NCBI GenBank assembly: GCA_028284905.1
Contig: JANQQU010000034.1
Location: 62,001 to 126,000, forward strand
Origin: Calditrichia bacterium
GTDB taxonomy: Bacteria > Calditrichota > Calditrichia > RBG-13-44-9 > J075
Length of the DNA: 64,000 bases
Direction: 5' to 3'
Shown: piece by piece, positions 41,476-62,856 of the stretch
How the letters are laid out: every line of letters begins with the position of its first letter
Numbering within the stretch: position 1 is the stretch's first letter
Translations under genes and position numbers: made by a program
The notes under the pieces: generated by a model
What the model saw: only the letters and a program-made list of their open reading frames with translations
Told to the model about the DNA's origin: nothing
Database searches by the model: none

Positions 41476-41583
41476 AATTATTCCTTCTATACCCGTCATA
41501 CTCTCCGCCTATAACATCGGAAAGTAAAGAGGGGAGCTTAAGATTTTAATTTCATTTATGCAAATTTTATGTCCGGAAAATGA

Positions 41584-44279: not shown

Positions 44280-44280
44280 T

Positions 44281-44342
44281 GGAGACTCCTTGCTATGAAT
44301 TAACTTTTTTCTCTTACACTTTAAATTTATAGCAAGGACTCC
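44281..44342 (-). promoter_or_regulatory. Hairpin sequestering the transposase ribosome site
   Basis: On the minus strand GGAGTCCTTGCTAT (44342-44329) pairs with ATAGCAAGGAGTCTCC (44296-44281), leaving a 2-base bulge. The 3' arm contains AAGGAG and ends one base before the ATG, so folding should hide the start of translation. Confidence 0.7.
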
Positions 44343-44521
44343 ATTTTTTTCAAACATAGAAACTGTCGAAGGATGAACAGTTCGCAAAACTGTTGAGATA
44401 GATCGTATTTATAGCAACTATCCGTGCTTATTCCCAGGGTTATTATCCGAGAATTTTTCACCCTTCGACAGGCTCAGGATGAATGGGAATGGTCCTATTA
44501 GAAAATATAGCACTAAATTTC

Positions 44522-46198
44522 CTACAGCTGCACCCGCACCGTCTGCACTGCATTCGCATCTATCGTAACCGCTGCATAACGGTCGCCAATCTGCAGGTTG
44601 TAAGTGATTGGCGCCTTGGTGGTGTTCAGCAATTGAACGCTCAGGAGATTATCACTATTGACTGTTGCGCAGGCGTGAAGGTCATCCGAGCCGAGGTTCG
44701 CGAGCGTTTTTTCGGTTTGCACTGCTTTGTCCCCGGGGCGAATCGTCCGGCTAAATTGGGACAATACGTGATAGATCGGGGTGTAATAAACATGCTTCGA
44801 TTCGGTGTCGATCATAATCGGTGCGCCACAGAAATTACCAACATGATTGGGGCCGCCATTATGGTCGAGAATAATATTCCAATCCACCCAACCGCGCATC
44901 CAATGGTCCAGGCTGACGATGATGTTACGCGCATAGCGATGCACCGGTGTATAGATCGGATGATCTTCCGCAGCTATCCCCTCCCAGGTAACTGAGTAAG
45001 CCCAGTCAGTCGCATTGTCATTCCACCAGAACTCATCATTATCAAACCAATCTTTTTCCTGAAAACGCTCCGGATCGGTGACCCCATTCTCCGGTGCCGG
45101 CTTGCCAAGATCGTCGATACAGCCTTCAGTATGAATAATCGCAAATCCAGGGAATTTTGCATTAACTGCGTCAAATTTTTCTTCAAACACTTTAAAAGTG
45201 CTCGCATACCAATGGACGGCAACACCGTAGAGATAAGGCGCTGTTTCCGGGTCCGCAAACATCAAATCGGTCCAATGCTCCAAACCATCGCGATTCTGAT
45301 CGTATGCTAACAACTTGATTGCATCATAGCCGCCGGCCTTTAGTTTTGGCCCAAGGTGCGCTTTGATAAATTCATTCTGCGTTTCCGGGGAGAAGTGCAT
45401 GCTTTCCCACTGACCATTATTGCCATGGGGTTCGTTCACCGGCGTTAATCCCCAAACATCCACGCCTTCGGCTTTGTAGGCATCGAGGTATTTGACGAGA
45501 TAATCCGCATAAACGGAAACACATTCATCCTTTAACGATCCACCGGTGCCCTGCCAGTTGTTCTCCGGAGCACCGGGAATATACCATTCTTCGATATCTT
45601 TCATCCAGGCAGGTGCCGTCCAGGCGGAAGCGATAATGCGCAATTCCTTGTCCGCTTGTCCGTTTTTAATGGCCAGGGCTTCCTGAATCATTGGCAGCAG
45701 GTCGTAGCTTTCATCAACGAGATTGGGATGATTGGCTTTTTTGAATCCGGCCTTATCCGGGGCAAGCGTGAAGCTTTCCAGCGCGGTGTCTCCCTTTTTA
45801 TCGACATAGGAGTATTTGCCGTAAACGCAAAAATCGCAGGCACCGATATGGGTTCTGGTTAAAGAAAAGTTAGCGCCACTTTCGCCGTAAATTTTCTCCA
45901 TCACTTCCTGGCGTTTTTCCTTCTCCAGATGCGCCAGCACATAGGCAGAGGACTCGGTAAAAGAAGTACCGATGCCATCAATGGTTTGTTTAACAACTTC
46001 CGGCTTTACCCGAATCACCACACCTTCGGCAGTGCCATCCTGGAAAGAGACATTCTCCTTAGTGGCAATTTTATCGCCGCCTTCTGAGGTAGAGAGAATT
46101 TCCGTGGTTGTGGCTAGTTTTGATTTATTTTCTGTAGTACAGGCACTCATAACAATTACCATAAAAATGAACATCAGGATTTGAATACTCTTTTTCAT
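44522..46198 (-). CDS. GH30-family glycosidase lipoprotein (likely beta-1,6- or beta-1,3-glucan active)
   Basis: 558 residues. A lipoprotein signal with Cys20 (VMSAC) precedes a GH30 TIM barrel plus beta-sandwich: QTIDGIGTSFTESSA opens the domain, the acid/base is E256 in PVNEPHG, the nucleophile is E358 in IIHTEGC, and PIYHVLSQFSRTIRPG leads into the C-terminal beta domain. GH30 members include beta-1,6-glucanases and beta-glucosidases (subfamilies 1 and 3). In a laminarin locus the beta-1,6 branch-cleaving role is most attractive, but the subfamily was not proven. GGTGGGG lies before the ATG. The cytoplasmic GH17 gene ends 37 bases upstream, so the two are probably co-transcribed. Confidence 0.9.
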   Translation of the reverse strand: MKKSIQILMFIFMVIVMSACTTENKSKLATTTEILSTSEGGDKIATKENVSFQDGTAEGVVIRVKPEVVKQTIDGIGTSFTESSAYVLAHLEKEKRQEVMEKIYGESGANFSLTRTHIGACDFCVYGKYSYVDKKGDTALESFTLAPDKAGFKKANHPNLVDESYDLLPMIQEALAIKNGQADKELRIIASAWTAPAWMKDIEEWYIPGAPENNWQGTGGSLKDECVSVYADYLVKYLDAYKAEGVDVWGLTPVNEPHGNNGQWESMHFSPETQNEFIKAHLGPKLKAGGYDAIKLLAYDQNRDGLEHWTDLMFADPETAPYLYGVAVHWYASTFKVFEEKFDAVNAKFPGFAIIHTEGCIDDLGKPAPENGVTDPERFQEKDWFDNDEFWWNDNATDWAYSVTWEGIAAEDHPIYTPVHRYARNIIVSLDHWMRGWVDWNIILDHNGGPNHVGNFCGAPIMIDTESKHVYYTPIYHVLSQFSRTIRPGDKAVQTEKTLANLGSDDLHACATVNSDNLLSVQLLNTTKAPITYNLQIGDRYAAVTIDANAVQTVRVQL

Positions 46199-46235
46199 AA
46201 CCCCACCATTAGCGAAAATGTAACAATTAATCAAA

Positions 46236-47132
46236 TTAACGGTACTTCAGATTGCCATTTATATCCCACAATCCCCAATAGGCACCAACATCACCTTCTG
46301 AGGCAACTTTCCAGAGTTCATCAAAGCTGGAGAAGTAGAACACTTCTATATCATCCTGCTCCGCCCAGGTATAGGTATTGATAAAATAGCGCATCGCATT
46401 TTCATAAGAAGGAACGGCGCCTCTGTCCGGAGTTCCTTTATTGGGCCAGCCGGTTTCGGAAATGATCACTTTTTTTCCTTTTCCGGCGTTAAGGGCAGTG
46501 TAATACATACTTTTCAGATACGCCAACGAATGCTCCAGCGGATACCCCTCCCAGAAGGGATAACAATTTGCCAGAACGATATCACAGGCATCGGCGATGC
46601 GCGGGTGTACCGCAAATTCGTAGTAGGCATCGACATAGCCAACCGGGATACCGGGGATTTCCTTTTTCACTCGATCCATGAATTCGATTATCTGATCTTC
46701 ACTTAAGTCACCGCGCAGCAATACTTCATTACCAACCGCAACGATATCCGCATGGCCGTCTTTGGCAACTCTCAGGACGCTTTCGATCTCTGCTTCATTT
46801 TTTTCCGGATCATCACCGAGCCAGGCACCGACCATTGTCTTTATCCCATTTTCGTGCGCAATCTTCGGGATTAACTCATTACCATCCGTACAGGAAAAAG
46901 AGCGGATCCATTTTACATAAGGCTTGATGACCTGCATGCGTTCTTCGATTTGTGCCGCACTAATTTGGGATCCCGGTGCCTGATCATCCAGGTAAACGCT
47001 AAAGGAAATACCGTGGATGCCATTTTCGAGAATTTGCAGAAATGCCGCTTCCAACTCTTTTTTACTCATTTTTGAGAAATCCAAACCGGCCAGTGAACTT
47101 CTCATACGATACTTACTAGACATGCTAGACAT
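46236..47132 (-). CDS. GH17-like glycosidase without signal peptide
   Basis: 298 residues, a bare TIM barrel with no export signal. The GH17 catalytic pair is E136 (AVGNEVLL) and E226 (ISETGWP). It ends with an aromatic-rich strand (FYFSSFDELWK, GAYWGLWDING). Lacking a signal, it probably acts in the cytoplasm on imported beta-1,3-gluco-oligosaccharides, next to the phosphorylase, by hydrolysis or transglycosylation. AGAGG precedes the ATG. A UspA gene ends 23 bases upstream, suggesting one transcript. An unconventional export route cannot be excluded. Confidence 0.87.
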   Translation of the reverse strand: MSSMSSKYRMRSSLAGLDFSKMSKKELEAAFLQILENGIHGISFSVYLDDQAPGSQISAAQIEERMQVIKPYVKWIRSFSCTDGNELIPKIAHENGIKTMVGAWLGDDPEKNEAEIESVLRVAKDGHADIVAVGNEVLLRGDLSEDQIIEFMDRVKKEIPGIPVGYVDAYYEFAVHPRIADACDIVLANCYPFWEGYPLEHSLAYLKSMYYTALNAGKGKKVIISETGWPNKGTPDRGAVPSYENAMRYFINTYTWAEQDDIEVFYFSSFDELWKVASEGDVGAYWGLWDINGNLKYR

Positions 47133-48038: not shown

Positions 48039-49388
48039 TTATTTCATCAGTATCATCTTCTTCACTGCAGTAAACTCGCCAGCAGTAAGTGAGTAGATGT
48101 ACACACCGCTCGGCAGATCTTTTGCGTCGAACGTATATTCGTAAGTACCGGCATTCTGGAAACCGTTCAGCAAGGTTGCTACTTCCTGACCGAGCACATC
48201 GTAGACCTTCAGGGTCACATTATTGGCTGTCGGCTGGCTGAAGCGAATGGTCGTGGACGGGTTGAACGGATTTGGATAGTTCTGCTCCAGTGCATAGGTC
48301 GTCGGGGTAATCTCATCAAGTTCTTCGATAGAAGACGCCGTAGAATTAAAGAAGTAGAGATTATCGAGATAAATATCGCCATTACCATCGAACTTAAACT
48401 GGAAAACATCCTCTAAGTTGACCGTCGGCGTAAAGGTGGACAGGGGAATATCTACGCTCACCCAAGTATTGGTCGCACCGGGAGGTACCAGCAAGTGTTC
48501 CACTTCATTTGGTCCGGGGCTAATTACCCAGATGCCCAGATCAGTAGAGTTCGCAGTCCAGAAATCTACGTGCACATGGGTCATGCCGGCGGCGGTCAAA
48601 TTTTGGTTCGCGAGAAATTGAGTCCCCTGGTAATCCAGTCCTGCATACTTCAGGGTATTATTGCCGTCGATCAATACTTCAGAAACCACCGTGCCCTGTC
48701 CCCAATTCGGATTGAGCTCTCTGTCAATATCGGTATAAGCATCGCTGAATACGGAAATAACAGCATTGGCAGGCCATGTCGGTGTCGGCGCAGCAACAGT
48801 CGGCTCCGAACCACCACCGCTGCCGTCAGAGAATGTAATGTTGTCAAAATAGCAAACATTATCCTGGGTTCTGCCATCCAAGTCGAAATCCGGGAAAATA
48901 ATGATTTGGTCCTGGCCAATAGTTGTCGAATCGCCAATTCTACCGGAAAAATCAAAGGTCAATTCTTCCCATTGATTAACTACTGTGTTCGGCACCTTAA
49001 TTTCCTCCAGCGCCGCACCATCCGGCCGAGCAAATTTAATACCGACATCACTAATCACCGGTTTCCAGACCATTATTTTAACGATGCTGTTTGCTTCACT
49101 TAATGAAAAAGTACCTATGTCCGAACCATGCATAGATTCAGTACCGGCCCAGGGATTTCCTGTTTGCAGTGCGGTAAATTTAGCCACCGTTGCGGAAGTA
49201 TTAATGTTCGGATCCGGATTGGGAATAATTTCCAGCGCCGGGTTTGTGTCATTCTCGAAAACAGCCCAGGTCCAATCCGCGCCATGGCCACCGGTTTCGA
49301 AATCGATCGGGGCATTTTGTGCAAATACGATGCTGCTCATTGCAATCATGCAAAAGATTGCCAGCAAATTAGTAAAGCTCTGTTTCAT
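48039..49388 (-). CDS. Secreted glucan-binding-like protein with T9SS-type sorting domain
   Basis: 449 residues. A signal peptide (ending VFAQN) is followed by a CBM-like N-terminal beta-sandwich (about 25-190: IDFETGGHGADW, CYFDNITFSDG) and one module (about 200-350) of the type VISVFSDAYTDID...NPNWGQ...LDYQG, the same module found twice at the end of the 965-residue lipoprotein nearby. The sorting domain follows (EQNYPNPFNPSTTIRFS...KKMILMK). GAGGTGAA precedes the ATG. It probably binds beta-glucan outside the cell and is exported by a type IX-like pathway. No catalytic residues are apparent. Confidence 0.87.
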   Translation of the reverse strand: MKQSFTNLLAIFCMIAMSSIVFAQNAPIDFETGGHGADWTWAVFENDTNPALEIIPNPDPNINTSATVAKFTALQTGNPWAGTESMHGSDIGTFSLSEANSIVKIMVWKPVISDVGIKFARPDGAALEEIKVPNTVVNQWEELTFDFSGRIGDSTTIGQDQIIIFPDFDLDGRTQDNVCYFDNITFSDGSGGGSEPTVAAPTPTWPANAVISVFSDAYTDIDRELNPNWGQGTVVSEVLIDGNNTLKYAGLDYQGTQFLANQNLTAAGMTHVHVDFWTANSTDLGIWVISPGPNEVEHLLVPPGATNTWVSVDIPLSTFTPTVNLEDVFQFKFDGNGDIYLDNLYFFNSTASSIEELDEITPTTYALEQNYPNPFNPSTTIRFSQPTANNVTLKVYDVLGQEVATLLNGFQNAGTYEYTFDAKDLPSGVYIYSLTAGEFTAVKKMILMK

Positions 49389-49530: not shown

Positions 49531-50559
49531 CTACTTTGTCAGATATTCGACGGCAACATCCCGGTATCCCCAGGCGCGCAGTTGCCGTGACCAGCCGCCG
49601 AGGTTTTCTTTCCAGACCGGGATCAGTTTCATCTGATTGTATTCATCGACTTCCTTTTCCAGGTGAATTTTATCAATGATTTTCTGCACCGGTACCTCTC
49701 CCCAACGAAAGGTCGGCTGCCCGAGAAAGACATCGACAATGCCCTTATCGATGTAGCCCAGTTGCATCGGCAGGGCATCTACCGCGACAATATTGACCTT
49801 ACCCGGGGACATCTCATTCAACAATGTTTCATCGAAAAAGGGCCAGCCGCCGACCATTGCCCAGCCTTTCAGATTGGGATATTCCGCGCTGATCCGCTTC
49901 ATTTCCGCAACGGCTGCTTCCGCGGTTTCCACATGATAGAAAGGGCCGACAATCTCGATACCACTATATTTTTCAGCAGCTTTCATTACGCCTTTCACCC
50001 GTTCCTGCAGGTTCGGTGCGTTCTCATTACCACCGAGAATGGCCACCTGGCCGCTTTCTCCCATCACGGACACCAGCCGGTCCAACACATTTTCCCCGAT
50101 CTCGGCATTGTTCGGCCCATAAAAAGCAAACCGCTTTGAGGACGGGGCATCACTGTCGAAGGTCATTACCGGAACGCCGCTCTCTACCGCGGTATTGATC
50201 GCAGCAGTGAGAATAGAATCATCCGAGCAGGAAACGATAATGGCATCTGTACCATCTTCAACGGCATTAAGAATGCGCTCCGCCTGCTCTTGCGGATCTT
50301 CCTCCTTGGGAGTACGCCAATCGATTTTCACCGAAATCTTACTGTATTTATCGGAGAGATCTTCCGCGGCGGCTTCCGCGCCGATCCGGGCAGATTGAAA
50401 TACCGGGTTCGAAGCGCTCTTCGCAATCATGGTGATGGTAATTTTTTTAGCATCAGCCGGTTCGATGCCGGCCAGTTCTTCAGTGAGATCCTGGCAGGCC
50501 ATCAACGATAAAAACAGGCTGATGAAGCTAATTCGAATAAATATTTTCCACATTTTCAC
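49531..50559 (-). CDS. Periplasmic sugar-binding lipoprotein (Peripla_BP_4/LacI type)
   Basis: 342 residues. A lipoprotein signal with Cys22 (LSLMAC) precedes the two-lobed type I periplasmic-binding fold: TITMIAKSASNPVFQSARIGAEAAA opens lobe one (ITMIAKSASNPVFQSA), and VPVMTFDSDAPSS and GGNENAPNLQERVKGV follow. This family binds monosaccharides or short oligosaccharides for ABC transporters or for sensor kinases. GTG at 50559 is chosen because AGGAGG lies 8 bases upstream; the ATG two codons later is too far. No ABC permease or ATPase gene is anywhere in the locus, so it is an orphan. It may present ligand to the HTCS or to a carrier encoded elsewhere. The GPH symporter gene ends 33 bases upstream. 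Confidence 0.9.
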   Translation of the reverse strand: MKMWKIFIRISFISLFLSLMACQDLTEELAGIEPADAKKITITMIAKSASNPVFQSARIGAEAAAEDLSDKYSKISVKIDWRTPKEEDPQEQAERILNAVEDGTDAIIVSCSDDSILTAAINTAVESGVPVMTFDSDAPSSKRFAFYGPNNAEIGENVLDRLVSVMGESGQVAILGGNENAPNLQERVKGVMKAAEKYSGIEIVGPFYHVETAEAAVAEMKRISAEYPNLKGWAMVGGWPFFDETLLNEMSPGKVNIVAVDALPMQLGYIDKGIVDVFLGQPTFRWGEVPVQKIIDKIHLEKEVDEYNQMKLIPVWKENLGGWSRQLRAWGYRDVAVEYLTK

Positions 50560-50592: not shown

Positions 50593-52059
50593 TTACGCCG
50601 TTGCCGGTTCTGCCCCTGCTTTTTCGCGGCGGGCATCCAGCTGTGCGCGAATTTCTTCCGATTTTTCTTCGGTGATCTTAAATGAAGCGACGGCCCAAAT
50701 AGATAATCCTGCCGCGACTGCCGGAATTATGACATCATATACTTTCATCCAGAAGAAGGTCGATTCCGTTTGTGCGCCCCCGAGGGCAACATCGAAGCCG
50801 GTAGCGTTCAACAGATAACCGGAAAGGAAGAAAGCGAGGGCCATACCCAACTTTACCATCCACCAGTAAATGGAGCCGAACATACCTTCCCGGCGCTCGC
50901 CGGTTTCCAGTTCATCCAAATCGCAGACATCGGCGACCATCGATCCCATCAGGGTAAAGAGTGCGCCCATGCCGACCGCCATTAGCGGGGCAACCAGCAG
51001 AATTTTCCAGGGAACCATCGGGTCGTAGCAAAACCATTTTAGTAAACTGCCGACCAATGTCACGGCTGTTGCAAGCATAAAGGTCATGCGTTTTCCCAGC
51101 CGGGAAGACAACCAGGTAACCACAACAATAGCCAATAAAGTGGCAATGGTATTAATGGTACCATAGATGCCCATGTATTGCGCCCCCATGTCATTATCTC
51201 CGCCACTGACATAGAAGATCATAATGTAGGAGCTGAAAGCGCCGACGAGCATAATGCCATTAAACAGAAAGAAAGTACCGGCACACAATTTTAAAAATTC
51301 ACGCTGTTTTAATGTGGTGACGAGCCCTTTCATAAACATGGAAACATTGTTTTTCAGGCCGGCCAGCAGCGATACTTTTTCTTCATCGCTATCATCATCG
51401 CCAGCGATAAACTTTTCCCGTAAAAAGAGCGCCGGCATAATTCCGACAACCGCAACGAATATCCCGATGACAATCGCCAGCGTGCGCGCCCCTTCAACGG
51501 AATCGGAAAAGAGACGGTCGTTTTCCATAATGGCGTAGAACCAGGGCAGGGTGATCCAGGCAAATTGCCCCATAAAGTTCATCACACCCATTAAGCGGGT
51601 CCGCTCATGATAATCGGAAGTTAACTCGTAACCGAGGGCAACCCAGGGCGTTGCAAATACGGTGTAAAACATGTAAAAAATAATTGAGCCGGCGAGAAAG
51701 AACCAAAAATAGAACGATTCGCTGTGGCCTTCCGGCAATTGCCACATCAGGGCAAAAACGAGCCCGACACCAAGGGCGCCGATAAAGATATAGGGGCGCC
51801 GGCGTCCAAAGCGGGAACGGGTTTTATCAGAAACATACCCCATCACCGGGTCGGTTAATGAATCCGTCAAACGGGGGATCGCCTGCAGCAATCCCACTAA
51901 TGCAGGATTCATTCCCAGGCCAACATTCAGAACAATTGACATAAAGCCAATAGCCGCTCCCAATAGATTGTTTACAATCGACCCCAGTCCATATGCGATC
52001 ATTTGTCCTGCGGTCAGGCGATCTGACGCAGCTGTTACATGTGGTTTATTAGCACTCAT
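50593..52059 (-). CDS. GPH-family sugar:cation symporter (MFS), second copy
   Basis: 488 residues with 12 membrane helices. It is a clear paralogue of the 38677-40149 carrier: both share NLLGAAIG, VGLGMNPALVGLL, DRTRS/DKTRS..GRRRPYIF and LGYELTSDYHERTRLMG. A role as inner-membrane importer of beta-gluco-oligosaccharides is inferred from context. GAGAGGTTAGG precedes the ATG. It lies between GH16 (upstream) and the binding lipoprotein (downstream, 33 bases), so it belongs to the same transcript. Two carriers in one locus suggest uptake of products of different length or branching. Confidence 0.92.
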   Translation of the reverse strand: MSANKPHVTAASDRLTAGQMIAYGLGSIVNNLLGAAIGFMSIVLNVGLGMNPALVGLLQAIPRLTDSLTDPVMGYVSDKTRSRFGRRRPYIFIGALGVGLVFALMWQLPEGHSESFYFWFFLAGSIIFYMFYTVFATPWVALGYELTSDYHERTRLMGVMNFMGQFAWITLPWFYAIMENDRLFSDSVEGARTLAIVIGIFVAVVGIMPALFLREKFIAGDDDSDEEKVSLLAGLKNNVSMFMKGLVTTLKQREFLKLCAGTFFLFNGIMLVGAFSSYIMIFYVSGGDNDMGAQYMGIYGTINTIATLLAIVVVTWLSSRLGKRMTFMLATAVTLVGSLLKWFCYDPMVPWKILLVAPLMAVGMGALFTLMGSMVADVCDLDELETGERREGMFGSIYWWMVKLGMALAFFLSGYLLNATGFDVALGGAQTESTFFWMKVYDVIIPAVAAGLSIWAVASFKITEEKSEEIRAQLDARREKAGAEPATA

Positions 52060-52113: not shown

Positions 52114-52935
52114 TTATTCTGCAGCTTCATACACCCGGACATAGTCCACCAGCATGGTTTGCGGGAAAACAGTGCTCAGGTTAGGTGAACCGACGTAATT
52201 ACCGCCGACGGCCAGGTTGAGTATGATATAGAACGGATGATCGTAGACCCATTCTCCGGGAACGCCGTCTGAGCGCACGGTTTGATAGAGTGCATCATCT
52301 ACGTACCAGCGAATCTCATCCGCTTCCCACTCCACTGCAAAAACGTGAAAACCGGTATCGAAGCGATCATTTACCGCCTGGTAACTGGTAGTCACCGGCT
52401 GCCCGCCGGAATAGCCGGGGCCATGCAAACTGCCATGAATAATTGTCGGTTCCTGTCCGCGATATTCCATTATGTCAATTTCTCCGCACTGCGGCCAGCT
52501 GACCTCATCGATATTGGCGCCGAGCAGCCAGAATGCCGGCCAGAGTCCCTGTCCCCAGGGGAGTTGCATGCGTGCTTCGAAGCGCCCGTAGGTCCTTTCG
52601 AAGCGGTTTTTGGTGATCATGCGGGCAGAGGTGTAATTACGACCGGAGAAGGATTCCGCGCGGGCAACTATTGCGAGATTGCCGTTGCCGTCGAGTGAGG
52701 CATTTTCCGGTCGGTCAGTATCATATTCCAGCTGGGCATTTCCCCAGTCGGTGCCGATGTCGAATCCCCAACGGGTCGCATTCGGCGACTGGCCAGCGGG
52801 ACCATCAAAATTATCTTCCCAGACGAGGCGCCATTCACCTTCATCAGCCTCGGAGCTGGAGCTGCAGCCGGCGAGGATCATGACAGCTACTATTAATACT
52901 GCAATTTTTAAGCGAATTAAGTAATTCCGGTACAT
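52114..52935 (-). CDS. GH16 laminarinase lipoprotein
   Basis: 273 residues. A lipoprotein signal with Cys24 (ILAGC) and a short Ser/acidic linker precede a single GH16 domain. The catalytic motif GEIDIMEYRG has nucleophile E152 and acid/base E157. LVWEDNFDG, GQGLWPAFWLLG and NLAVGGNYVG are typical of bacterial endo-1,3-beta-glucanases (GH16 subfamily 3). It should cut laminarin on the cell surface. AAAGGGA precedes the ATG. The large glucan-binding lipoprotein gene lies just upstream, and the GPH symporter gene starts 55 bases downstream. Confidence 0.94.
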   Translation of the reverse strand: MYRNYLIRLKIAVLIVAVMILAGCSSSSEADEGEWRLVWEDNFDGPAGQSPNATRWGFDIGTDWGNAQLEYDTDRPENASLDGNGNLAIVARAESFSGRNYTSARMITKNRFERTYGRFEARMQLPWGQGLWPAFWLLGANIDEVSWPQCGEIDIMEYRGQEPTIIHGSLHGPGYSGGQPVTTSYQAVNDRFDTGFHVFAVEWEADEIRWYVDDALYQTVRSDGVPGEWVYDHPFYIILNLAVGGNYVGSPNLSTVFPQTMLVDYVRVYEAAE

Positions 52936-53173: not shown

Positions 53174-56071
53174 CTAGTTCTTATAGAAATAAAGATTGTC
53201 GATCCAGATATCGCCATCGCCATCGAACTTGAACTGGAAGACATCGGCCAGGTCAACCGGATCAAACGCGGAGAGCGGAATATCCACGCTCATCCAGGTA
53301 CCGCTTGCTGCCGGTGGCACCAGTAAGTATTCTTGTTCCACCGCCGGGTCGCCGGGGCTGATAATGAAAATACCGAGGTCGGTAGAATTTGCTGTCCAGA
53401 AATCGATATGGAGGAATTCCATACCGGCAGCGCTCAGGTTCTGATTCGCAGCCAGTTCGATTCCCTGGTAATTCAATCCGGCATAACTGATAGTATTGTT
53501 ACCGGAAATCAGCACCTCGGTCATTACCGTTGCCTGTCCCCAATTAGGGTTGAGATTGCTATCAATATTAGTGTAGGCATCGCTGAAAACAGAGATGACA
53601 TTACCAGCAGCAGCGGTCGGATCCGGGGCCGGGCCAGCCGGCTCAGTGGGATTCGTACCACCGGATTTGTAGAAGTAGAGATTATCGATCCAGATATCGC
53701 CATCGCCTTCAAACTTGAACTGGAAGACATCAGCGAGATCAACCGGATCAAAAGCGGAAAGCGGAATATCTACGCTTACCCAGCTGCCGCTTGCTGCGGG
53801 CGGGACCAGAACGTATTCGGTTTCCACCGCCGGGTCGCCAGGGCTAATCAGGAAGATACCGAGATCGGTAGAATTCGCTGTCCAGAAATCCACATGGAGA
53901 AATTCCATACCGGCAGCGGTCAGATCCTGATTCGCGTTTAATTGAATACCCTGATAATTCAAGCCGGCATACTTCATGGTATTGTTGCCGGAAATCAGTT
54001 CCTCGGTAACTACCGTTGCCTGTCCCCAATCCGGGTTCAGATCTCTGTCAATATCGGTGTAGGCATCACTGAAAACAGAGATGACATCACCGCTTGCAGC
54101 GGTCGGGTCTGGCGCCGGAGTGGTCGGCCCAACCGGAGGCGTTACTTCTCCGTCGTAGAAGTAGACATTATCGACGTAAACCGTATTCGGATCGCCGGAA
54201 AGCACCATTTGCGCAAGATTGGCGCGATTCGCCAGGCCGGCGAAATCACTCAGAGGCACATCAATGCTTACCCACTGTTCCGTTGCCAGCAACGGCGCGG
54301 TAAACGTCAATTCGTGGCTGGAATCATCGCCGCCATCAAAAGCGCCATCGGGGCCGAAATCGACAAGTAACACTTTAAATGCTGCCGGTGCTGCCGTAGG
54401 ATCCGGGGTCCAGATATCGATATGGAAACGGTTCATTGCGGTGGCGTCGATGGTTTCCGTGGCAAACTCGATACCCACGAAATTGAGCGCAGTATAGCGC
54501 TTCACATCATCACCAGCAACCTGAATATCGTCTACATTGGCAGTGGAGAATTCCCAGCCGGTATCCCAGGTATCGACGTTAACGTCGTTGTATGCGTTAC
54601 TGAACATGGAAATGACATTCGCAGCATCAACCGTTGGGGTCGGGGCCGGCACTGTCGGTGCTACCGGAGGCGCAACTTCTCCGCTATAGAACAAGACATT
54701 GTCCACATAAACGGTGTTCGGCTCGCCAGACAATACCAATTGGGCAAGATTCGAACGATTGGCTAGGCCAGCAAAATCGCTGAGCGGTACATCAATGGTC
54801 ACCCATTGTTCCGAGGCCAGCAGCGGTGCAGTAAAACTCAATTCATGGCTGGTATCATCGCCGCCGTCAAAAGCATTATCCGGACCGAAGTCGATCAGCA
54901 ACACCTTGAAAGAAGCCGGTGCAGCAGTGGGATCCGGGGTCCAGATATTCATATGGAAACGGTTTGCCGAGGAGGCATCGATGGTTTGGGTCGCGAATTC
55001 AATACCGACAAAGTTGAGATCGGTATACTTCTTCACGTCATTACCGGCAATCTGGATGTCTTCCACGTTAGCAGTGGAGAATTCCCAGCCGGTATCCCAG
55101 GTATCAATCGGGACATTGTCGTATGCATTACTGAACATGGAAATAACACTATCAGCAGCGATGGTCGGGGTCGGGGCCGCAGCAGTCGGACGCGGGGCAG
55201 CCGGAGTGACATTGATAGTAATTATGTCGGCCACTTCCACGTTACCAAGCTTCACGGTAATTTCTGCAGAACCAACACCTGTTCCGGTAATAGAACCATC
55301 ATCACCAATACGTGCGACAGCATCATTGGAAGAAACCAGGGTGAAATAACCCGGTGCGGCGTTAACGGTAATGTCTTTGCCGTTCACGTTATAGATAACT
55401 CCAGTAACGCCGGCGCTAATTACTTCGCCAACTTCACCGGTAATGACATTCGAGATTACCACAGCGCGCGGCTGGGCGATCGTTCCCAGTTTCTCGAACT
55501 TCACTTCGTCCAACCAAACCTGAAAGCCTAACTCTTCGAATGCGCCAACTGAATACTGAAACAGACCTTTTTCCTGGGTCAGTCGACTGGCGTCGGGAAT
55601 CGGAACAATATACTTTTGCCAGGTTGTAGTTAGTACAATGTCGGATCGGGAAGCATCATAAGCAGAGTTCCCGGAATTGTCGTTACCAAATCCGGCCAGG
55701 CCAAACGGGGCGTTCACACTGGCTCTTGCCCAAAAAGTAAGCGCGTCATAACCGGATAAATTACGGGGACCGGGCGCAACAAATGCACCGCCGGAAAAGA
55801 AGCCGGAGGGATCGCCCACACTGGGCACGGTAATGCGCAGGGAAGCCTCTCCGGAATACTTTACATCCGTATCCCCGCTGATCGCATCCAGTTTAGTATT
55901 CAGGAACGCCTGATAATCCAGGCCGCCGCTAATACCATCGAGAAAAATATCGCCATTTGTCGGAAATTCGGCCGGTTCCAGCAGATCAAGATCTCTCTCA
56001 CAGCTGGTGAATCCGGCAATAGCTAACAGTAAAACCACTTTTATGAGGCGGTAGAAAATTTTAACATTCAT
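53174..56071 (-). CDS. Modular glucan-binding surface lipoprotein with four tandem CBM-like modules
   Basis: 965 residues. A lipoprotein signal with Cys24 (GFTSC) anchors it. Residues about 30-195 form a CBM-like sandwich (GLDYQAFLNTK, YDALTFWARASV, GFQVWLDEVKFEKL). About 200-290 is a BIG2-type Ig domain (VIYNVNGKDITVNAAPG, ITGTGVGSAEITVK). Two near-identical modules follow at about 299-465 and 478-642 (VISMFSNAY...DTWDTGWEFSTANV), and two of a related kind at about 653-800 and 815-965 (VISVFSDAY...NP.WGQATV). No catalytic site is visible. It may take the place of a SusE/SusF-type glucan-binding protein. GGGAGG precedes the ATG. Confidence 0.88.
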   Translation of the reverse strand: MNVKIFYRLIKVVLLLAIAGFTSCERDLDLLEPAEFPTNGDIFLDGISGGLDYQAFLNTKLDAISGDTDVKYSGEASLRITVPSVGDPSGFFSGGAFVAPGPRNLSGYDALTFWARASVNAPFGLAGFGNDNSGNSAYDASRSDIVLTTTWQKYIVPIPDASRLTQEKGLFQYSVGAFEELGFQVWLDEVKFEKLGTIAQPRAVVISNVITGEVGEVISAGVTGVIYNVNGKDITVNAAPGYFTLVSSNDAVARIGDDGSITGTGVGSAEITVKLGNVEVADIITINVTPAAPRPTAAAPTPTIAADSVISMFSNAYDNVPIDTWDTGWEFSTANVEDIQIAGNDVKKYTDLNFVGIEFATQTIDASSANRFHMNIWTPDPTAAPASFKVLLIDFGPDNAFDGGDDTSHELSFTAPLLASEQWVTIDVPLSDFAGLANRSNLAQLVLSGEPNTVYVDNVLFYSGEVAPPVAPTVPAPTPTVDAANVISMFSNAYNDVNVDTWDTGWEFSTANVDDIQVAGDDVKRYTALNFVGIEFATETIDATAMNRFHIDIWTPDPTAAPAAFKVLLVDFGPDGAFDGGDDSSHELTFTAPLLATEQWVSIDVPLSDFAGLANRANLAQMVLSGDPNTVYVDNVYFYDGEVTPPVGPTTPAPDPTAASGDVISVFSDAYTDIDRDLNPDWGQATVVTEELISGNNTMKYAGLNYQGIQLNANQDLTAAGMEFLHVDFWTANSTDLGIFLISPGDPAVETEYVLVPPAASGSWVSVDIPLSAFDPVDLADVFQFKFEGDGDIWIDNLYFYKSGGTNPTEPAGPAPDPTAAAGNVISVFSDAYTNIDSNLNPNWGQATVMTEVLISGNNTISYAGLNYQGIELAANQNLSAAGMEFLHIDFWTANSTDLGIFIISPGDPAVEQEYLLVPPAASGTWMSVDIPLSAFDPVDLADVFQFKFDGDGDIWIDNLYFYKN

Positions 56072-56144: not shown

Positions 56145-59100
56145 TTACATACCGATGTTGAAATGAAGGTAAGTTCTAATTTCCCATTCACTGCCATTGG
56201 AGAATCCATCCGCAGTCGGCACACATTCCAGAACGCCGATGTCATTTACTGCTTGGGTGGGGCAATAGCGGGGAGAATTTTCATCCAGCGAACGCCAGGT
56301 AAAACGAACACCGAGACGAGTTTGCGGAATATCATGCCATTGCGGGCTGCCAACAGTCGTCGAAAAATCTGCCATGAGCTGTACCGGATAGGTCAGGTTA
56401 AAGTCACGATGGAAGTCGTAGGGACCCCAATCGTTAATTTTTGCCATAGCAGTCATTTTGTAGTCACCCAAAATCATGCGAAGATCGCCACCATAGCGCT
56501 TCACCAGGCGGGGATCGTCACCATTCGGCTCGGCATTACCGGCGAAAAGATTCGCGATGAGGCCCTGTCCCGGGGTGGTTTTGGAGATGATACGGGCATG
56601 CGCTTCCCAGAGATCGCGTGCCGGAGGGGCACCGGGGAAAGCAAAGGTAGTACGGCCATCACCAAGAATACCAATCGCAGCATCCTGAGAGGTCGGCTGG
56701 TTACGATATACAAAGCCAACGCTGGCGGCCAGGGAAGCATCTTCGGCCATGTCGTTGTCCCAGGCATACATCCAGCTACCCGGCGTCGGGTCGTAAGTAA
56801 TCAAGATTTCACCAGCGGTTGTTTCGCGGTTGCCACGAACAGCAAAGGGATCGTCCAGAACGTTACGGGGTCTGCCCGGTGCTTGTACATCACTGGGAAT
56901 AGGACCTTCGATCGGCTTCTGATAAAGGAAGTTCGGGGCAAATTGCCAGCTGCCCTTATTGTAAGTGAAACCGGAGAGTACATTCATCTGGTTACCGCTA
57001 CCGCTGTCCTTCAAGCGCCAGCCGGTAAACGTCTGAGTAATGTCCGCACCACCGCGGGCAACGAGGCCCTGTGCTGCCGCAGAAGCATACCAGTTAATCG
57101 CTCCTTTGGACAAGGTCAGTTTCAGCTTTCCACCAAAAGTATCTTTGGTTTCAATATCATCCTGTAAAACCCGGTAGTTGCCGGTGGTGCCGTCTACTAA
57201 CTGGAAGGATTCTCCTACCCAGTTATCACCGGACCAGATACCACCAAGATCTACGCCAAAACCGGCCAGCTTGGTTTCCACATGCAAGGTTGCTCTGCGG
57301 GTCGGTGGAATCGGTACCGCAAAGGAGCTCACTGCCGGTGCCTGCTCATCAAGGTCTTCATGGAAGATACCGGTAACATCCATGCCAGCAATCTTACGAG
57401 TATATTTCAATAATACTGCCGGGTTAGCGCCCCACCAGAGTTCCGGGCCAAACGCGACTTTTAAACCATTAAAGGATCTCTTTCCGTGAAGTTCCATACC
57501 CACCGGAGCGATACCGTTGTAGAGATCAATATTCGGGCCATAATTCGCTTCCGGATATAATCCGAAGAAGTCGCCTTCGTATCCCCAGTGATAGTGACCG
57601 GTGCGATAAAAACCATCCAGATCGAACAGGCGGCTTTTCCAGCTAACACTGGCCTGATGAACTCTTACCCGGTTCAACGAGCTCAAAGTCAGGTTGCCTT
57701 CGTCCGTCCGTACTTGTCTGGAGCGGCCGGTATTCTCATAGAAGATTTCATCGATGGGATTTTCCGGAACATTTCCAAGCACGTTAAAAGAAACGGTACC
57801 ACGTACACTATTGGTTGGATTTGCTTCAATATCTGTATAGAAAGACTGCATATGCCCGAAACCGAGTTCGTTCGGATACTCACGCACATCCGGATCGGGA
57901 TTGTCGGGAGTGGTAATCAAATCGCCACCGGTGCTGAAAGAAGTAAATTCGAAACGCGCACCGCTAATGCGCACTTTACCAGACTGCTGGCCGAGCAGCG
58001 CGGCACGGTCGCCTCTGGCTTCCAACACGGCATCCATCAACAGAATATTATCAAAATGTCTTTTCAGGTTATCCGCGGAAGAACCAGCGACATATGGATT
58101 ATATGAGTGGGCTTTCCGCAATGCATAATAAGCCGCACGGGGATAGAGCTGATACAGTCCGCTCGCATCGGTCGGCCCTTTTGCACAGATACCGAACCAC
58201 TCTTCGTTCATATTGTTTTCGCCCTCCGCGAAGTCGAAACGGTAACCACCGTTCGCCCAGGAAGCGTTGTTATCATGAACGTCAAGATTTTCCGTCTGGC
58301 CATACTTCCACCAGCCATCGCTGAACTGGAAAGTAAAACCACCGATGGAGTTGCCCACTTTGCCGAGACCGGCGGCATTGGCATAAATCTCTTCCCAGTT
58401 CTCAACCATGTAACCCGCCTGGGCATACTGGTCTTCTGCATTAGAAATAGCATTAAACGCATCCGAGCCAAATTCAGTGAAAAGGATCGGCTTATTCAGC
58501 TTGTCTTTCGTTACCTGGAAAGCATCGCCGAAAGAGTAACCGCGATACATGTTGGTGCCGTAGATGTCCACATCCTTACACTCTTCCGCAATAATGTCGA
58601 TAAAAAGCATGTCGCCATTACACATCGCTACCGGTATATCGGAGTCGATTGCTTGCATTGCGACAGCGGCTTCATTAAACAGCTTGTACATATGACGGGC
58701 GCGTATGGTCGATTTCCGGTCCTGCATCGGAATATCTTCCGTTTCCGCACCTTCCCAGAAGAGACCGTAATTGTTCTCGTTACCGAGCAGATACATCAAA
58801 ACGCCGGGAACGCCTTTGAACTCGTTCACCATTGCTTTTACTTCCTTTAGCAACAGTTCGCGAACTCTCGGATCGGAATACTCTGTGTTGCTAACGAAAG
58901 TGCCGTCCAACGGCAGTCCGTAACGGCCAAAAGAATGGTTGAGCATTGTATAAACGCCATAATTCTCGTACATGTAGGTGACCCACTTTGGCTGAACACC
59001 AGTGTAGACACGTACAGCATTTACACCCATACTTTTTAGCAGGGACATTTCTGCATCCAGTGCAGCTTTAATTAAATCATCCGGTTGATTCCATAAACTA

Positions 59101-59324
59101 TAGGAATAGTTGGTACCAATCGGGAAATAATCCCAGTTCATACCATTCACCATGAAATCTTTACCTCCGACCTGAAGCTTAATGCCGGAGGCATCCGAAA
59201 CGATGGTTACTTTTTCGGCCTGCGCCAGGGCATTACTTGAACTGGCGAGCAGCATCATTACAACGATTGCCGCCAGCCAGAAACCTGAGACCAAACGAGT
59301 TAACTTACTTTGGGATATAACCAT
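56145..59324 (-). CDS. Clan GH-A glycosidase fused to an outer-membrane beta-barrel
   Basis: 1059 residues. A signal peptide (ending ALAQ) is followed by a TIM-barrel glycosidase (about 40-410): GMNWDYFPIGTNYSYS, MGVNAVRVYTGV, candidate acid/base E183 in YLLGNENNYG and nucleophile E284 in FTEFGSDAF, spaced as in clan GH-A enzymes (GH2/GH5/GH72-like; exact family not settled). From about 450 onward the sequence alternates in short amphipathic strands with Gly/Asn/Asp turns and ends RTYLHFNIGM, like an outer-membrane barrel closed by a BAM signal. The inferred role is a glucan-cutting porin. AGGAGG precedes the ATG. The phosphorylase gene lies 79 bases upstream and the modular lipoprotein gene 73 bases downstream. 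Confidence 0.82.
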   Translation of the reverse strand: MVISQSKLTRLVSGFWLAAIVVMMLLASSSNALAQAEKVTIVSDASGIKLQVGGKDFMVNGMNWDYFPIGTNYSYSLWNQPDDLIKAALDAEMSLLKSMGVNAVRVYTGVQPKWVTYMYENYGVYTMLNHSFGRYGLPLDGTFVSNTEYSDPRVRELLLKEVKAMVNEFKGVPGVLMYLLGNENNYGLFWEGAETEDIPMQDRKSTIRARHMYKLFNEAAVAMQAIDSDIPVAMCNGDMLFIDIIAEECKDVDIYGTNMYRGYSFGDAFQVTKDKLNKPILFTEFGSDAFNAISNAEDQYAQAGYMVENWEEIYANAAGLGKVGNSIGGFTFQFSDGWWKYGQTENLDVHDNNASWANGGYRFDFAEGENNMNEEWFGICAKGPTDASGLYQLYPRAAYYALRKAHSYNPYVAGSSADNLKRHFDNILLMDAVLEARGDRAALLGQQSGKVRISGARFEFTSFSTGGDLITTPDNPDPDVREYPNELGFGHMQSFYTDIEANPTNSVRGTVSFNVLGNVPENPIDEIFYENTGRSRQVRTDEGNLTLSSLNRVRVHQASVSWKSRLFDLDGFYRTGHYHWGYEGDFFGLYPEANYGPNIDLYNGIAPVGMELHGKRSFNGLKVAFGPELWWGANPAVLLKYTRKIAGMDVTGIFHEDLDEQAPAVSSFAVPIPPTRRATLHVETKLAGFGVDLGGIWSGDNWVGESFQLVDGTTGNYRVLQDDIETKDTFGGKLKLTLSKGAINWYASAAAQGLVARGGADITQTFTGWRLKDSGSGNQMNVLSGFTYNKGSWQFAPNFLYQKPIEGPIPSDVQAPGRPRNVLDDPFAVRGNRETTAGEILITYDPTPGSWMYAWDNDMAEDASLAASVGFVYRNQPTSQDAAIGILGDGRTTFAFPGAPPARDLWEAHARIISKTTPGQGLIANLFAGNAEPNGDDPRLVKRYGGDLRMILGDYKMTAMAKINDWGPYDFHRDFNLTYPVQLMADFSTTVGSPQWHDIPQTRLGVRFTWRSLDENSPRYCPTQAVNDIGVLECVPTADGFSNGSEWEIRTYLHFNIGM

Positions 59325-59403: not shown

Positions 59404-62400
59404 TTATGCAGTAATGGTTACTCGTACTTGCTTAACATTGCCGTCCCGTTGAAAAATCGAACGACTTAACGCAGCACCAATTTCATAAGCGGTCATTTCG
59501 TTTTCTCTACCGTCGCTACCGGTAACGAAGACGCTTTTCTCATTCGCTAATACAAAAACAAAGGGCACCTGGCACATGGTAAAGGCCAGGGTACCGGCAT
59601 CAAGCGCTATAGATTGTTGCTGATTATTTACATCGTAATAGGTAAACGTTTGCGGTGAAGACAAGAATTCTTCCTTGCTTAACAGCGCCGGATTGAATCG
59701 GATTTTGCCATCTTGAATAACAATCCCGAATTCACCAAAGCGAGAGAGGATGTCCTCTTTCACCTGGCCGGTCATACCCGGTTGCTGGGCGCCGCTGTGG
59801 CCCGGCGTGTGGGAATAGGCATCGGTACTGAATGCGCCGTAAACTTCCGGACTTTTGTGGATGCCAATCCCTTCCCGAATGTCGTAGTAATGCGCGCGCA
59901 GTGCCGCTAAACTTTCCGCACTGGCGCCCGCTTCAATCGCCCAGAAAAAGGTGTCCTGAACTGCCAGTAAAAGCTTGGATACCATATGCCAGTAGATTGA
60001 ACCCAGCCCTTCATACTTATAGAAAGTGCCGGACCTGCCGGTAAAAGATTGATGGTCAAATATTTTTTCGTAAATTTCGAGAGTGCTGCTTATTTCTTCA
60101 TCGGTAATTTCTGATCCACCCGCTCTCAATTCAATCAGTGTTTCTTTCAACAAACGGGCATTATGCATATTGCTGTTAAAATGCCAGGTGCCGGATGCGC
60201 CTTTAATGAGCACACTTTCGTTGTTGAGAACAGCACTGTCTGCGGAAAGACCGGATGCCTGAATCATTTTTTCCGGAATATTATTCTTTTCAGTGAAGCG
60301 GGGCAGATTCCGGTTCGGGTAAAGCAAATAGCTATGTTGATCTTCCCGATACAGGATGCTTTTCCGCAGGGATGCCAGCAATGCGTTTGCAGCTTCCGCG
60401 GTCAGATAACCGGAACTCAGCACTGCTACCTGCCCTTCGAGCATTTCGTACAGGCGGCGAATGGAAACAGCATCTTTCTCACGTAAATCGATCAGATTAT
60501 AAGCGTGATAAAGATTATCTTCCCGCTGATTACTTGCGATCGAATGATCGATATATTTCATCCCCAATTCCAGGAAGGAGAGTATATCGCTAATAGCCAG
60601 CGGCTGTTTCTTGCCACTAAATCCCGCTTTATAAAGGGTCATTCGATAATCACTACCAGCCTCTCCAAAATGATCAAGAAATTTCTTTCGCTCTTTGTCG
60701 TCGAAATCGCCGGTGAGTAATCCCTGAAATTTTTCCAGGCCATCTTTTAACTGGTTAAAGAAAGTGAGGACCTCTTCGGAGATTTCCACCCGCCCGGCAT
60801 CTGCGGACTGAAAAAACGCTTGCGAGAATTCGAAAAAACGTCTCAGGTAGCACAAGGTCACCATCGATGCGCCATAGCCGACCAGGGCATTATTGGCATC
60901 GTTCCACTCCGGGCGCTGGGTATTCATCCAGATACCGGCGCCGGGCACGAAATTCGACATCTTTACCAAAACGGGTACCAGCAACTTTTCCAGCAGGCTA
61001 ACGTGGTAAATTTCTCCGTTTGCCAGGGCAAGATACTTACCGTCCTCGCCAATCGCTTCTACCCGCTCCTCAATCCATTCATTCAATTCAGCATCGAAGT
61101 CGATGGTATCATGCGGATTTTCAAGCACTGCTGCATAGGATTTAATCCTGTAGGGGACATTCGCATAAGCAAAGACCTCTTTGCCGAGCAGCGATTGAAG
61201 TTTGCCAGGATGATATTTATGGGAAAGCTCCAGTAACTTCAGGAGATAAATAATTTGGTGGTCGCCCCAGTAGCCGATATATGACCAGGGATCGGCCGGG
61301 TCAATAATTTCCCAGTCAAATCCATCGCGAATTACCCGATAAGGATTATATCCATCTGCAGTGGAGGCGCTCAGGAATTTACTGATCATATTTTCCAGGT
61401 ATTCCGGATAAGAAAGTGCCAGTGCTTCCCAATTCTGAAAGATGTCCCGCCAGTTCCCCTGGTAATCCAGTTTTTTATTACCGAATTCATCTCTCAAATC
61501 GATGGAGAATTGATTCCAGGGACGGCTGGGATCGCCGTGGCGACGGCTAAATATCAGTGGCAGGTATTGCACATAAAGTCGCTGCAGATCCCGGTCTGCT
61601 GTCGAAAGGCGGCTTGCCAAATCATTAAAATTGAATTGCTCAGGTAATTCATCAAAAACGGTCGCAAATTTTTCCGCCGTGGCCTTGTTCGCTGTCTGAA
61701 TAAACTTTTGGAAATCATGCTTATCCACAACATAGCCATCGTCAAAAATGCCCCCACGCATAATGTTATAAAGCGTATTGGAGAAATGACGAAAAACATT
61801 CCGCGGATCTGCGGTCAGCTGACCGCCATCGGCTTGCGCGATTTTGATACTAAGGCGATCGCTATCCGCATTTATTTCCTCCTCCAACCGTGCAGCCAGG
61901 TCCTCATCCGAGGCTAACAATTTGGAAAGAGAGGCGACATCTTTATGGGTTTTATTAAGATCCGCGACAATGTACCAGTCTTTTTCACCGTTAGGGGATA
62001 ACGCAAATTCTCCCTGCAGAAAATAGGCACCGCGGAGGGCACGTACGTCTTTTTCAGTATGAACGTCCCGCCCATTACGGAAGGCATCCAGTTGCCCGGA
62101 TGACAGAAGGACCTTGGCATTCTCCATTCCACAGGACCAAACAGCATTCGCTTTTAGCGATTCACTCGGCTCAGCTTCATCCGTAGGCACGGAGCTGAGC
62201 ATAAAAATGGCGAGGCGACTGTCGCCTATTAATTCGTTTTTCTTATACCCATCTACCAGGGTACTATACTCTAACTGAAATTTTCGCTCCACCATTGCCG
62301 GCAGAACATTTTGAATACCGTCAAGCATGCTGATCGCGACAGTGACTTCATTGAGATTAACAACTCGCGACTTTTTCACAAAGCCAAAGGCATCACAGTT

Positions 62401-62856
62401 TTTCCAGGCGTATTGAAAGCTGAGACCCAAATCGTGGTTGACTTCCTCAAAGACCAGTTTATTACCAACGATGTTTTTGTAGATATTCCGGGTGCAGCTA
62501 TAAACACCTTCGTACCTGGCGGAGAAGGGCTCCCATAAGAAAGTTTTCCCACCCTTTTTTACCAGCACGATTGTTTTGCCGCCGGTAATCTCATCGGAGT
62601 CATAAATTCTGTCATCAGTGTAATAAGGGAAGATTGCATTGTCGGGATTACGACGTCCCGCTGTTAAGGCGCCGTTGCTCGATATGAACATCCAGAGATC
62701 CGAGTCGCTGACGATATTCATAAAAAAGGGCGGCATTGCATCAAAGTTGGATATTTTGAAATATGCTTCGTTGGCAAGTGTAACGATTTCGCCTGCTACG
62801 GTTTTAGCTGCCGTCTGGAGCGTGCTGCTACCTAAATAAATCTGTGTCGTATTCAT
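59404..62856 (-). CDS. GH149/GH161-like beta-1,3-glucan (oligo)phosphorylase
   Basis: 1150 residues with no signal peptide, so cytoplasmic. The N-terminal beta-sandwich (about 1-330) resembles GH94-type phosphorylases. The (alpha/alpha)6 barrel holds the candidate general acid D653 in QRPEWNDANNALVGYG, the equivalent of the DWND motif, plus GDPSRPWNQFSI, YQGNWRDIFQNWEAL and a C-terminal phosphate-side HTPGHSGAQQPGMTGQV. The length (~1150) suits GH149 (beta-1,3-oligoglucan phosphorylases) better than GH94 (~800), and GH161 is the alternative. The reaction would be beta-1,3-glucan(n) + Pi giving glucan(n-1) + glucose-1-phosphate. It is the first gene after the HTCS gene, with HTCS-like direct repeats and a palindrome upstream. 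Confidence 0.87.
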   Translation of the reverse strand: MNTTQIYLGSSTLQTAAKTVAGEIVTLANEAYFKISNFDAMPPFFMNIVSDSDLWMFISSNGALTAGRRNPDNAIFPYYTDDRIYDSDEITGGKTIVLVKKGGKTFLWEPFSARYEGVYSCTRNIYKNIVGNKLVFEEVNHDLGLSFQYAWKNCDAFGFVKKSRVVNLNEVTVAISMLDGIQNVLPAMVERKFQLEYSTLVDGYKKNELIGDSRLAIFMLSSVPTDEAEPSESLKANAVWSCGMENAKVLLSSGQLDAFRNGRDVHTEKDVRALRGAYFLQGEFALSPNGEKDWYIVADLNKTHKDVASLSKLLASDEDLAARLEEEINADSDRLSIKIAQADGGQLTADPRNVFRHFSNTLYNIMRGGIFDDGYVVDKHDFQKFIQTANKATAEKFATVFDELPEQFNFNDLASRLSTADRDLQRLYVQYLPLIFSRRHGDPSRPWNQFSIDLRDEFGNKKLDYQGNWRDIFQNWEALALSYPEYLENMISKFLSASTADGYNPYRVIRDGFDWEIIDPADPWSYIGYWGDHQIIYLLKLLELSHKYHPGKLQSLLGKEVFAYANVPYRIKSYAAVLENPHDTIDFDAELNEWIEERVEAIGEDGKYLALANGEIYHVSLLEKLLVPVLVKMSNFVPGAGIWMNTQRPEWNDANNALVGYGASMVTLCYLRRFFEFSQAFFQSADAGRVEISEEVLTFFNQLKDGLEKFQGLLTGDFDDKERKKFLDHFGEAGSDYRMTLYKAGFSGKKQPLAISDILSFLELGMKYIDHSIASNQREDNLYHAYNLIDLREKDAVSIRRLYEMLEGQVAVLSSGYLTAEAANALLASLRKSILYREDQHSYLLYPNRNLPRFTEKNNIPEKMIQASGLSADSAVLNNESVLIKGASGTWHFNSNMHNARLLKETLIELRAGGSEITDEEISSTLEIYEKIFDHQSFTGRSGTFYKYEGLGSIYWHMVSKLLLAVQDTFFWAIEAGASAESLAALRAHYYDIREGIGIHKSPEVYGAFSTDAYSHTPGHSGAQQPGMTGQVKEDILSRFGEFGIVIQDGKIRFNPALLSKEEFLSSPQTFTYYDVNNQQQSIALDAGTLAFTMCQVPFVFVLANEKSVFVTGSDGRENEMTAYEIGAALSRSIFQRDGNVKQVRVTITA

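Follow-up and report, generated by a model that had tools for sequence, protein, structure and literature searches.

Few pools of fixed carbon in the sea are larger than laminarin, and the way in which Bacteroidota take it up is put down almost wholly to the TonB-driven SusC/SusD (SusC/D) system. The locus described here raises the question of how a β-1,3-glucan enters a cell when the only outer-membrane barrel encoded in its glucan operon is carried on the same chain as a glycosidase. The locus belongs to a Calditrichia bacterium (assembly GCA_028284905.1, contig JANQQU010000034.1, positions 62,001 to 126,000 of the forward strand), and this whole stretch of 64,000 nucleotides is called here the window, with positions counted from its first letter. 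At 56145-59324, on the minus strand, a single intact open reading frame (ORF) of 1059 codons, with no interruption, encodes a signal peptide followed by a TIM barrel of glycoside hydrolase (GH) clan GH-A, a helical linker and a barrel-type region of about 610 residues. The gene is present in hundreds of bacterial genomes, where it has so far been filed as an ordinary sugar-cutting enzyme, and its second half is a large outer-membrane barrel. In our reading, the protein is probably an enzyme-tailed outer-membrane glucan pore that stands in for SusC/D, which, if true, would represent a new way for algal sugar to enter the cell. The parts of the gene are the following (AF2, AlphaFold2).

56145-59324, minus strand: GH-A glycosidase/outer-membrane β-barrel fusion protein, 1059 amino acids, stop codon included
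59223-59324, minus strand: Sec-type signal peptide, residues 1-34 (from the sequence)
58095-59219, minus strand: catalytic TIM barrel, residues 36-410 (Pfam, profile against the PDB, Foldseek)
58776-58778, minus strand: E183, predicted acid/base, preceded by N182 (invariant; aligned with the GNE motif of GH158)
58473-58475, minus strand: E284, predicted nucleophile (invariant; aligned with the TEFG motif of GH158)
57975-58094, minus strand: helical linker, residues 411-450 (AF2 helices 417-425 and 429-447)
56151-57974, minus strand: outer-membrane β-barrel, residues 451-1058, about 24 predicted strands (AF2, Foldseek, alternation, conservation)

A glycosidase and a barrel on one chain

The fusion of a glycosidase to an outer-membrane barrel in a β-1,3-glucan operon had been put forward in an original prediction made from the letters of this DNA, and the computational analysis bears it out, together with the signal peptide, which is of the ordinary Sec type. 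The structure of the full chain was predicted by AF2 from an alignment of the proteins of 80 loci, a single-sequence model (predicted local distance difference test, pLDDT, 30) being discarded. In the resulting model (mean pLDDT 78, predicted template-modelling score, pTM, 0.58), the C-terminal residues 451-1057 form long antiparallel hairpins, counted as 24 strands, or as 26 if the hairpin 706-723 belongs to the wall. Pfam, NCBIfam and PDB sequence searches give no meaningful match in the C-terminal region of about 610 residues. Foldseek against the PDB returns mostly enzyme matches, but also the Campylobacter major outer-membrane protein MOMP (E 1.4e-8) and the TonB receptor PfeA (E 2.3e-8), and against a viral library it returns models of an OmpC-type porin, SusC and a phosphate-selective porin. 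The hydrophobic inside/outside alternation of the barrel strands amounts to 1.28, compared with 0.71 ± 0.10 after shuffling within strands. Similarly, a sequence scan independent of the model gives the barrel half a z of 3.4 (family median 4.2), whereas SusC barrels score 2.4-2.9, the TonB receptors of this genome range from -0.4 to 3.6, and the soluble proteins of the operon stay between -1.6 and 1.6. The general traits of outer-membrane barrels, that is, amphipathic antiparallel strands with short turns on one side and long loops on the other, are all present. Accordingly, the roughly 600 barrel-like residues of the original prediction stand. A soluble β-sandwich array, named there as the contrary outcome, is at odds with the AF2 prediction; the length of the strands, the pattern of turns, the alternation and the Foldseek matches all led to its rejection.

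Conservation follows the architecture of the barrel. Specifically, in 21 of the 24 strands conservation is higher on the lumen side than on the lipid side (mean 0.81 vs 0.66, p 3e-4). Four loops rich in aromatic and charged residues are also highly conserved.

57504-57602, minus strand: loop L3, residues 575-607, containing GHYHWGYEGDFFGLYPEANYGPNID; proposed glucan-binding loop (93% mean conservation)
57420-57440, minus strand: loop L4, residues 629-635, LWWGANP (99% mean conservation)
56991-57068, minus strand: loop L7, residues 753-778 (90% mean conservation)
56391-56429, minus strand: loop L11, residues 966-978, WGPYDFHRDFNLT (95% mean conservation)

Such conservation of lumen face and loops would be the pattern expected of a substrate-handling channel, unlike that of a plain anchor. 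As for the orientation of the protein, the turns that follow even strands, on the barrel side that bears the enzyme, are short, with a median of 2 residues against 27.5 for the opposite loops (p 1e-4); all turns of two to three residues lie on the enzyme-attached side, and the long loops lie opposite. In outer-membrane barrels, short turns mark the periplasmic side. If this rule, from which the sidedness is assumed, holds here, the enzyme domain is most likely periplasmic, below the pore and at its periplasmic mouth. According to the original prediction, the protein could cut glucan at the mouth of its own pore, thereby merging the tasks of a surface enzyme and of SusC: the SusC-like role of the barrel finds comparative evidence in the SusC/D pattern and the repeated barrel loss described below, while the short-turn side would place the enzyme in the periplasm and not on the surface.

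In the catalytic half, the two glutamates singled out in advance, E183 (LLGNEN) and E284 (LFTEFG), are exact in position, invariant in 80 full-length homologues and invariant also in relatives at 24-32% identity. Pfam Glyco_hydro_2_C (PF02836) matches residues 89-295 (32.4 bits, cut-off 21, 7e-8). The domain profile searched against the PDB ranks GH158 endo-β-1,3-glucanases first (9oro 9e-13; BuGH158, 6pal, 9e-11), followed by GH2 barrels and GH72-type 1,3-β-glucanosyltransferases; with the single window sequence, the PDB sequence search gives no GH158 match, and the profile is needed. Foldseek on the AF2 model also puts GH158 on top, and matches Gas2 with laminaripentaose as well. The catalytic residues of BuGH158 are N136-E137 and E220 (PMC7157763), which correspond to N182-E183 and E284 in the fusion protein; both proteins have a clan GH-A TIM barrel, in which the N-E acid/base and the E nucleophile align. 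The layout differs, since in GH158 enzymes an Ig-like domain at the C-terminus packs against the TIM barrel (PMC7157763), whereas in the AF2 model no such domain is seen and the linker is followed instead by the barrel of about 24 strands. The GH72 model PF03198 gives weak matches in 9 of 29 family members, the window protein not being listed among them. Canonical GH2 enzymes have two β-sandwich domains ahead of the TIM barrel; here, Pfam and AF2 detect neither the GH2 N-terminal sugar-binding domain nor the Ig-like sandwich domain, and the signal peptide runs directly into the TIM barrel. In other words, the catalytic domain is neither a canonical GH2, for lack of the sandwich domains, nor a plain GH158, for lack of the Ig domain and of a single-sequence match, and its CAZy family is consequently left unassigned. 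By sequence profile and by Foldseek, this putative glycosidase is nearest to the β-1,3-glucan enzymes GH158 and GH72. Compact relatives of about 350 amino acids lie beside GH149, GH17 and GH30 genes in two further loci (L137:9145-10203 and L140:9550-10545), the former matching the GH72 glucanosyltransferase model slightly under the cut-off, which hints at transglycosylase activity. More distant enzyme relatives occur in a different gene cluster (L138:8713-10134 and L141:9131-10528); the one in L141 has a GH16 gene near it and a CarbopepD_reg-like domain ahead of its TIM barrel.

Orthologues lacking the barrel

Nine genuine barrel-less orthologues (422-479 amino acids) were found; those compared directly share 52-62% identity with the enzyme half of the window protein. 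In three of their loci (L130, L132 and L176), a SusC-SusD pair heads the same kind of operon, at the position that the fusion takes in fused operons, as the first in the run of carbohydrate-binding module (CBM) and GH16 genes. Moreover, a SusC-type receptor lies 8.7 kb away in L129, and L134 has a SusC/D laminarin cluster farther along the same contig. In a comparison of the fused loci with good flanks and the barrel-less loci meeting the flank rule, SusC/D was present within 10 kb in 5 of 81 and in 3 of 5, respectively (Fisher p 0.005), a contrast drawn from a small number of barrel-less loci, which loses significance when shared ancestry is taken into account (3 independent pairs).

In the tree, the forms without a barrel turn up at separate places among the fused ones, with 5 changes counted and an uncertain placement of L133 and L176, which have long branches. 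The barrel-less L130 is sister (98*) to the fused L192, which carries both the fusion and SusC/D and looks like an intermediate of barrel loss. Furthermore, an in-frame relic of barrel strands 1-2 (L135:3438-3620, E 5e-10), followed by GH149, stands behind the stop codon of the shortened enzyme gene of L135, a locus in which barrel loss can be seen directly. The barrel therefore appears to have been lost several times from fused ancestors. The opposite polarity, with the barrel-less form as ancestral, is rejected on the tree and on the L135 relic. Separate parts, foreseen in the original prediction as a finding against the fusion, do occur for the enzyme half, and they leave the fusion standing since these forms appear to be derived by barrel loss. 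A lipobox or lipoprotein signal is found in 6 of 9 barrel-less orthologues vs 5 of 112 fused forms, a simple lipobox pattern being without match in the other 107. Finally, no barrel apart from the enzyme was found in 395 Bacteroidota genomes. The SusC/D pattern, the nested losses, the L135 relic and the lack of a lone barrel are the grounds on which the barrel may be considered a functional stand-in for SusC/D.

The operon and a possible import route

The fusion gene lies 79 bases after a GH149 gene and 73 bases before the gene of a CBM-module lipoprotein, in the following order.

59404-62856, minus strand: GH149 β-1,3-glucan phosphorylase, no signal peptide, upstream gene (NCBIfam NF058639, 1678 bits)
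53174-56071, minus strand: putative surface glucan-binding lipoprotein with repeated CBM-like modules and lipobox FTSC; adjoins the fusion in almost all fused loci
52114-52935, minus strand: GH16 lipoprotein, endo-β-glucanase (Pfam; gene order conserved)
50593-52059, minus strand: inner-membrane sugar transporter of the major facilitator superfamily (MFS; Pfam MFS_2 1e-57)
49531-50559, minus strand: periplasmic sugar-binding protein (Pfam Peripla_BP_4)
48039-49388, minus strand: protein exported by the type IX secretion system, with a CBM-like module as in the 965-residue lipoprotein (Por_Secre_tail; clustering with the latter)
46236-47132, minus strand: GH17, no signal peptide (Pfam)
44522-46234, minus strand: GH30 of the β-1,6-glucosidase type, lipoprotein signal (Pfam 4e-58)

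A universal stress protein gene is also part of the run downstream of the fusion, and sensor and AraC-type regulators are found with the glucan-breakdown genes. The block fusion-CBM-GH16, with GH149, GH30, MFS and GH17 close by, recurs through the fused loci. With its co-located glucan enzymes and transporter in conserved order, the operon is of the β-1,3-glucan utilisation type.

A probable route can be drawn from these parts. The barrel would span the outer membrane, and β-1,3-glucan chains, supplied and shortened by the surface binding lipoprotein and GH16, would bind to its conserved loops. The N-terminal GH-A domain, tethered by the helical linker and most probably periplasmic, would cut or transglycosylate the incoming chain at the exit, which may help to render uptake one-way. 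The β-1,6 branches would be removed by GH30, and the oligosaccharides would be carried into the cell by the MFS transporter and then phosphorolysed by GH149. Where SusC/D is present, the barrel would be dispensable, and may for this reason have been lost several times. In its strongest form, which we put forward only tentatively, the protein could be a TonB-independent, hydrolysis-driven importer, in which β-1,3-glucan passes into the wide barrel and is drawn inwards as the periplasmic glycosidase, joined covalently to the barrel, cuts it at the exit. If true, this importer would be an alternative to SusC/SusD across records of Bacteroidota, Calditrichota, Ignavibacteriota, KSB1, Gemmatimonadota and Acidobacteriota. 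A widespread enzyme-tailed barrel in the place of SusC/D would give glucan a second outer-membrane route and would explain how glucan enters in GH149-type clusters without SusC/D; GH149 clusters lacking susCD have been recorded since 2018 (PMC5827456).

Some minor features of the operon may be added. The CBM-like module of about 150 amino acids, repeated in the proteins at 53174-56071 and 48039-49388, resembles nothing in Pfam and nothing in the PDB to a meaningful degree, as is the case for the whole lipoprotein at 53174-56071, and is probably a β-glucan-binding family without assignment. An IS110-type transposase gene (43215-44387) lies between GH30 and further same-strand genes, namely those for a 402-amino-acid protein of no known family, a second GH17-like protein (40363-41499) and an MFS-like ORF from 38677. 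Because the IS110 gene separates genes of the same strand, a longer glucan operon may have been split by the insertion. Promoter and terminator scans gave no signal above shuffles, and a PADLOC search returned no result.

Alternatives, known systems and spread

Apart from the limit that ancestry sets on the SusC/D contrast, a number of points weigh against a stand-in for SusC/D. No SusC/D is seen up to 10 kb from the barrel-less L131, L133 and L134, the fusion and SusC/D occur together in five fused loci, and the flanks of the barrel-less L135 and L136 end at contig edges. Elsewhere in the window genome there are 55 TonB-receptor plugs and one SusD. The operon itself has no outer-membrane barrel besides the fusion, the nearest TonB receptor in the window (32089-34923) being about 21 kb off. 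The AF2 model, with its pTM of 0.58, gives no inter-domain placement. Lastly, the C-terminus lacks the aromatic residue usual for the β-barrel assembly machinery (BAM), and the BAM-type terminus described in the original prediction was not found: the window protein ends in M, and K, N or M is the last residue in 102 of 122 fused ORFs, with no F, W or Y among those. The last barrel strand (1044-1057) is clearly amphipathic.

An unlikely alternative is surface display, in which the barrel would be an anchor or translocator holding the enzyme outside, while glucan enters elsewhere, for instance through a TonB receptor encoded elsewhere, of which the genome has many. Type V autotransporters do share with the fusion a signal peptide, an N-terminal enzyme as passenger and a C-terminal barrel, and the lipobox of 6 of the 9 barrel-less orthologues looks as if anchoring had needed replacement. 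However, the translocator barrels of autotransporters have 12-16 strands, and the present one, with about 24 strands and about 610 residues, is about twice that size; its interior is conserved, and it goes with an uptake operon that has no other outer-membrane barrel. In addition, conservation of the barrel comes close to that of the enzyme (mean pairwise identity within the family 65% vs 70%) and falls on the lumen face and loops, and autotransporter Pfam models have no match in the C-terminal part of 33 homologues. Less probable still is a specific passive porin for glucan oligosaccharides, in which the fusion merely links the two parts, with cutting and import uncoupled. The same barrel, operon and conservation evidence would also suit such a porin, and enzyme-only versions without the barrel exist, but the failure to find a lone barrel among the Bacteroidota genomes suggests that the enzyme is needed in cis. 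A channel for glucan export, in which the enzyme would do the trimming in the periplasm, would fit the predicted topology and has parallels in the alginate, cellulose and Pel systems, whose export porins act with periplasmic hydrolases, but it is highly improbable in an operon without a glycosyltransferase, where GH149, MFS, GH17, GH30 and sensor/AraC-type regulators indicate breakdown.

Returning to the pore that would replace SusC/D, its closest counterparts are the SusC/SusD laminarin loci of Bacteroidota (B. uniformis 1,3GUL, PMC7157763; Formosa, PMC6246565), with which it has in common a conserved operon, an outer-membrane barrel, a surface binding protein, GH16 and other β-1,3-glucan enzymes, an MFS transporter and a sensor regulator. 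Unlike these loci, it has no SusD and a glycosidase on the same chain, and its barrel has no TonB plug match, as neither Plug (PF07715) nor CarbopepD_reg is matched by Pfam in the fusion protein. Counted from predicted strands, its barrel has about 24 strands vs 22 in SusC, and PfeA and a SusC model are among its Foldseek matches. Another transporter joined in one chain to a β-1,3-glucan hydrolase, with a proposed coupling of cutting and uptake, is the MFS-GH17 fusion of marine Flavobacteriia (PMC6246565), which belongs to the inner membrane, whereas the present fusion belongs to the outer one. MFS and GH17 apparently form one chain also in similar operons of this family (L135:8617-10968, L013 and L080), an inner-membrane counterpart of the fusion.

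In the open-licence literature, no description was found of a glycan-uptake protein in which a glycosidase and an outer-membrane barrel are fused. The gene itself seems to have been listed, at the corresponding operon place, as a 'GH2 β-glycosidase' in a Muricauda laminarin locus (PMC13188888) and as 'GH0' in laminarin loci of blooms (PMC10108472), the barrel being absent from both texts; from position and gene order, these genes are very probably the fusion family or its barrel-less form. The earlier statement that no described enzyme of this layout was known in laminarin use would thus hold for the barrel and not for the gene. In one bloom study, the GH0 genes of such loci ranked in the top 10% of their genome by expression (PMC10108472), so that proteomic and transcriptomic data already in existence could serve to check our reading.

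The fusion is far beyond a chance occurrence. A scan of GTDB species genomes yielded at least 587 stretches encoding relatives, of which the best 80, kept as loci, match the window protein over practically its whole length, with 61-79% identity. Nearly full-length fused copies number 33 in the 395 Bacteroidota genomes, and relatives among the listed GTDB matches come from records labelled Calditrichia, KSB1, Ignavibacteriales, Gemmatimonadetes, Thermoanaerobaculia and Neomarinimicrobiota. Strong matches occur in only 4 of 40 genomes of the window's own phylum, and this patchy distribution suggests horizontal spread of the fusion gene. One further copy, at L142:1271-3225, is broken by stops and has a truncated barrel, as a gene in decay.

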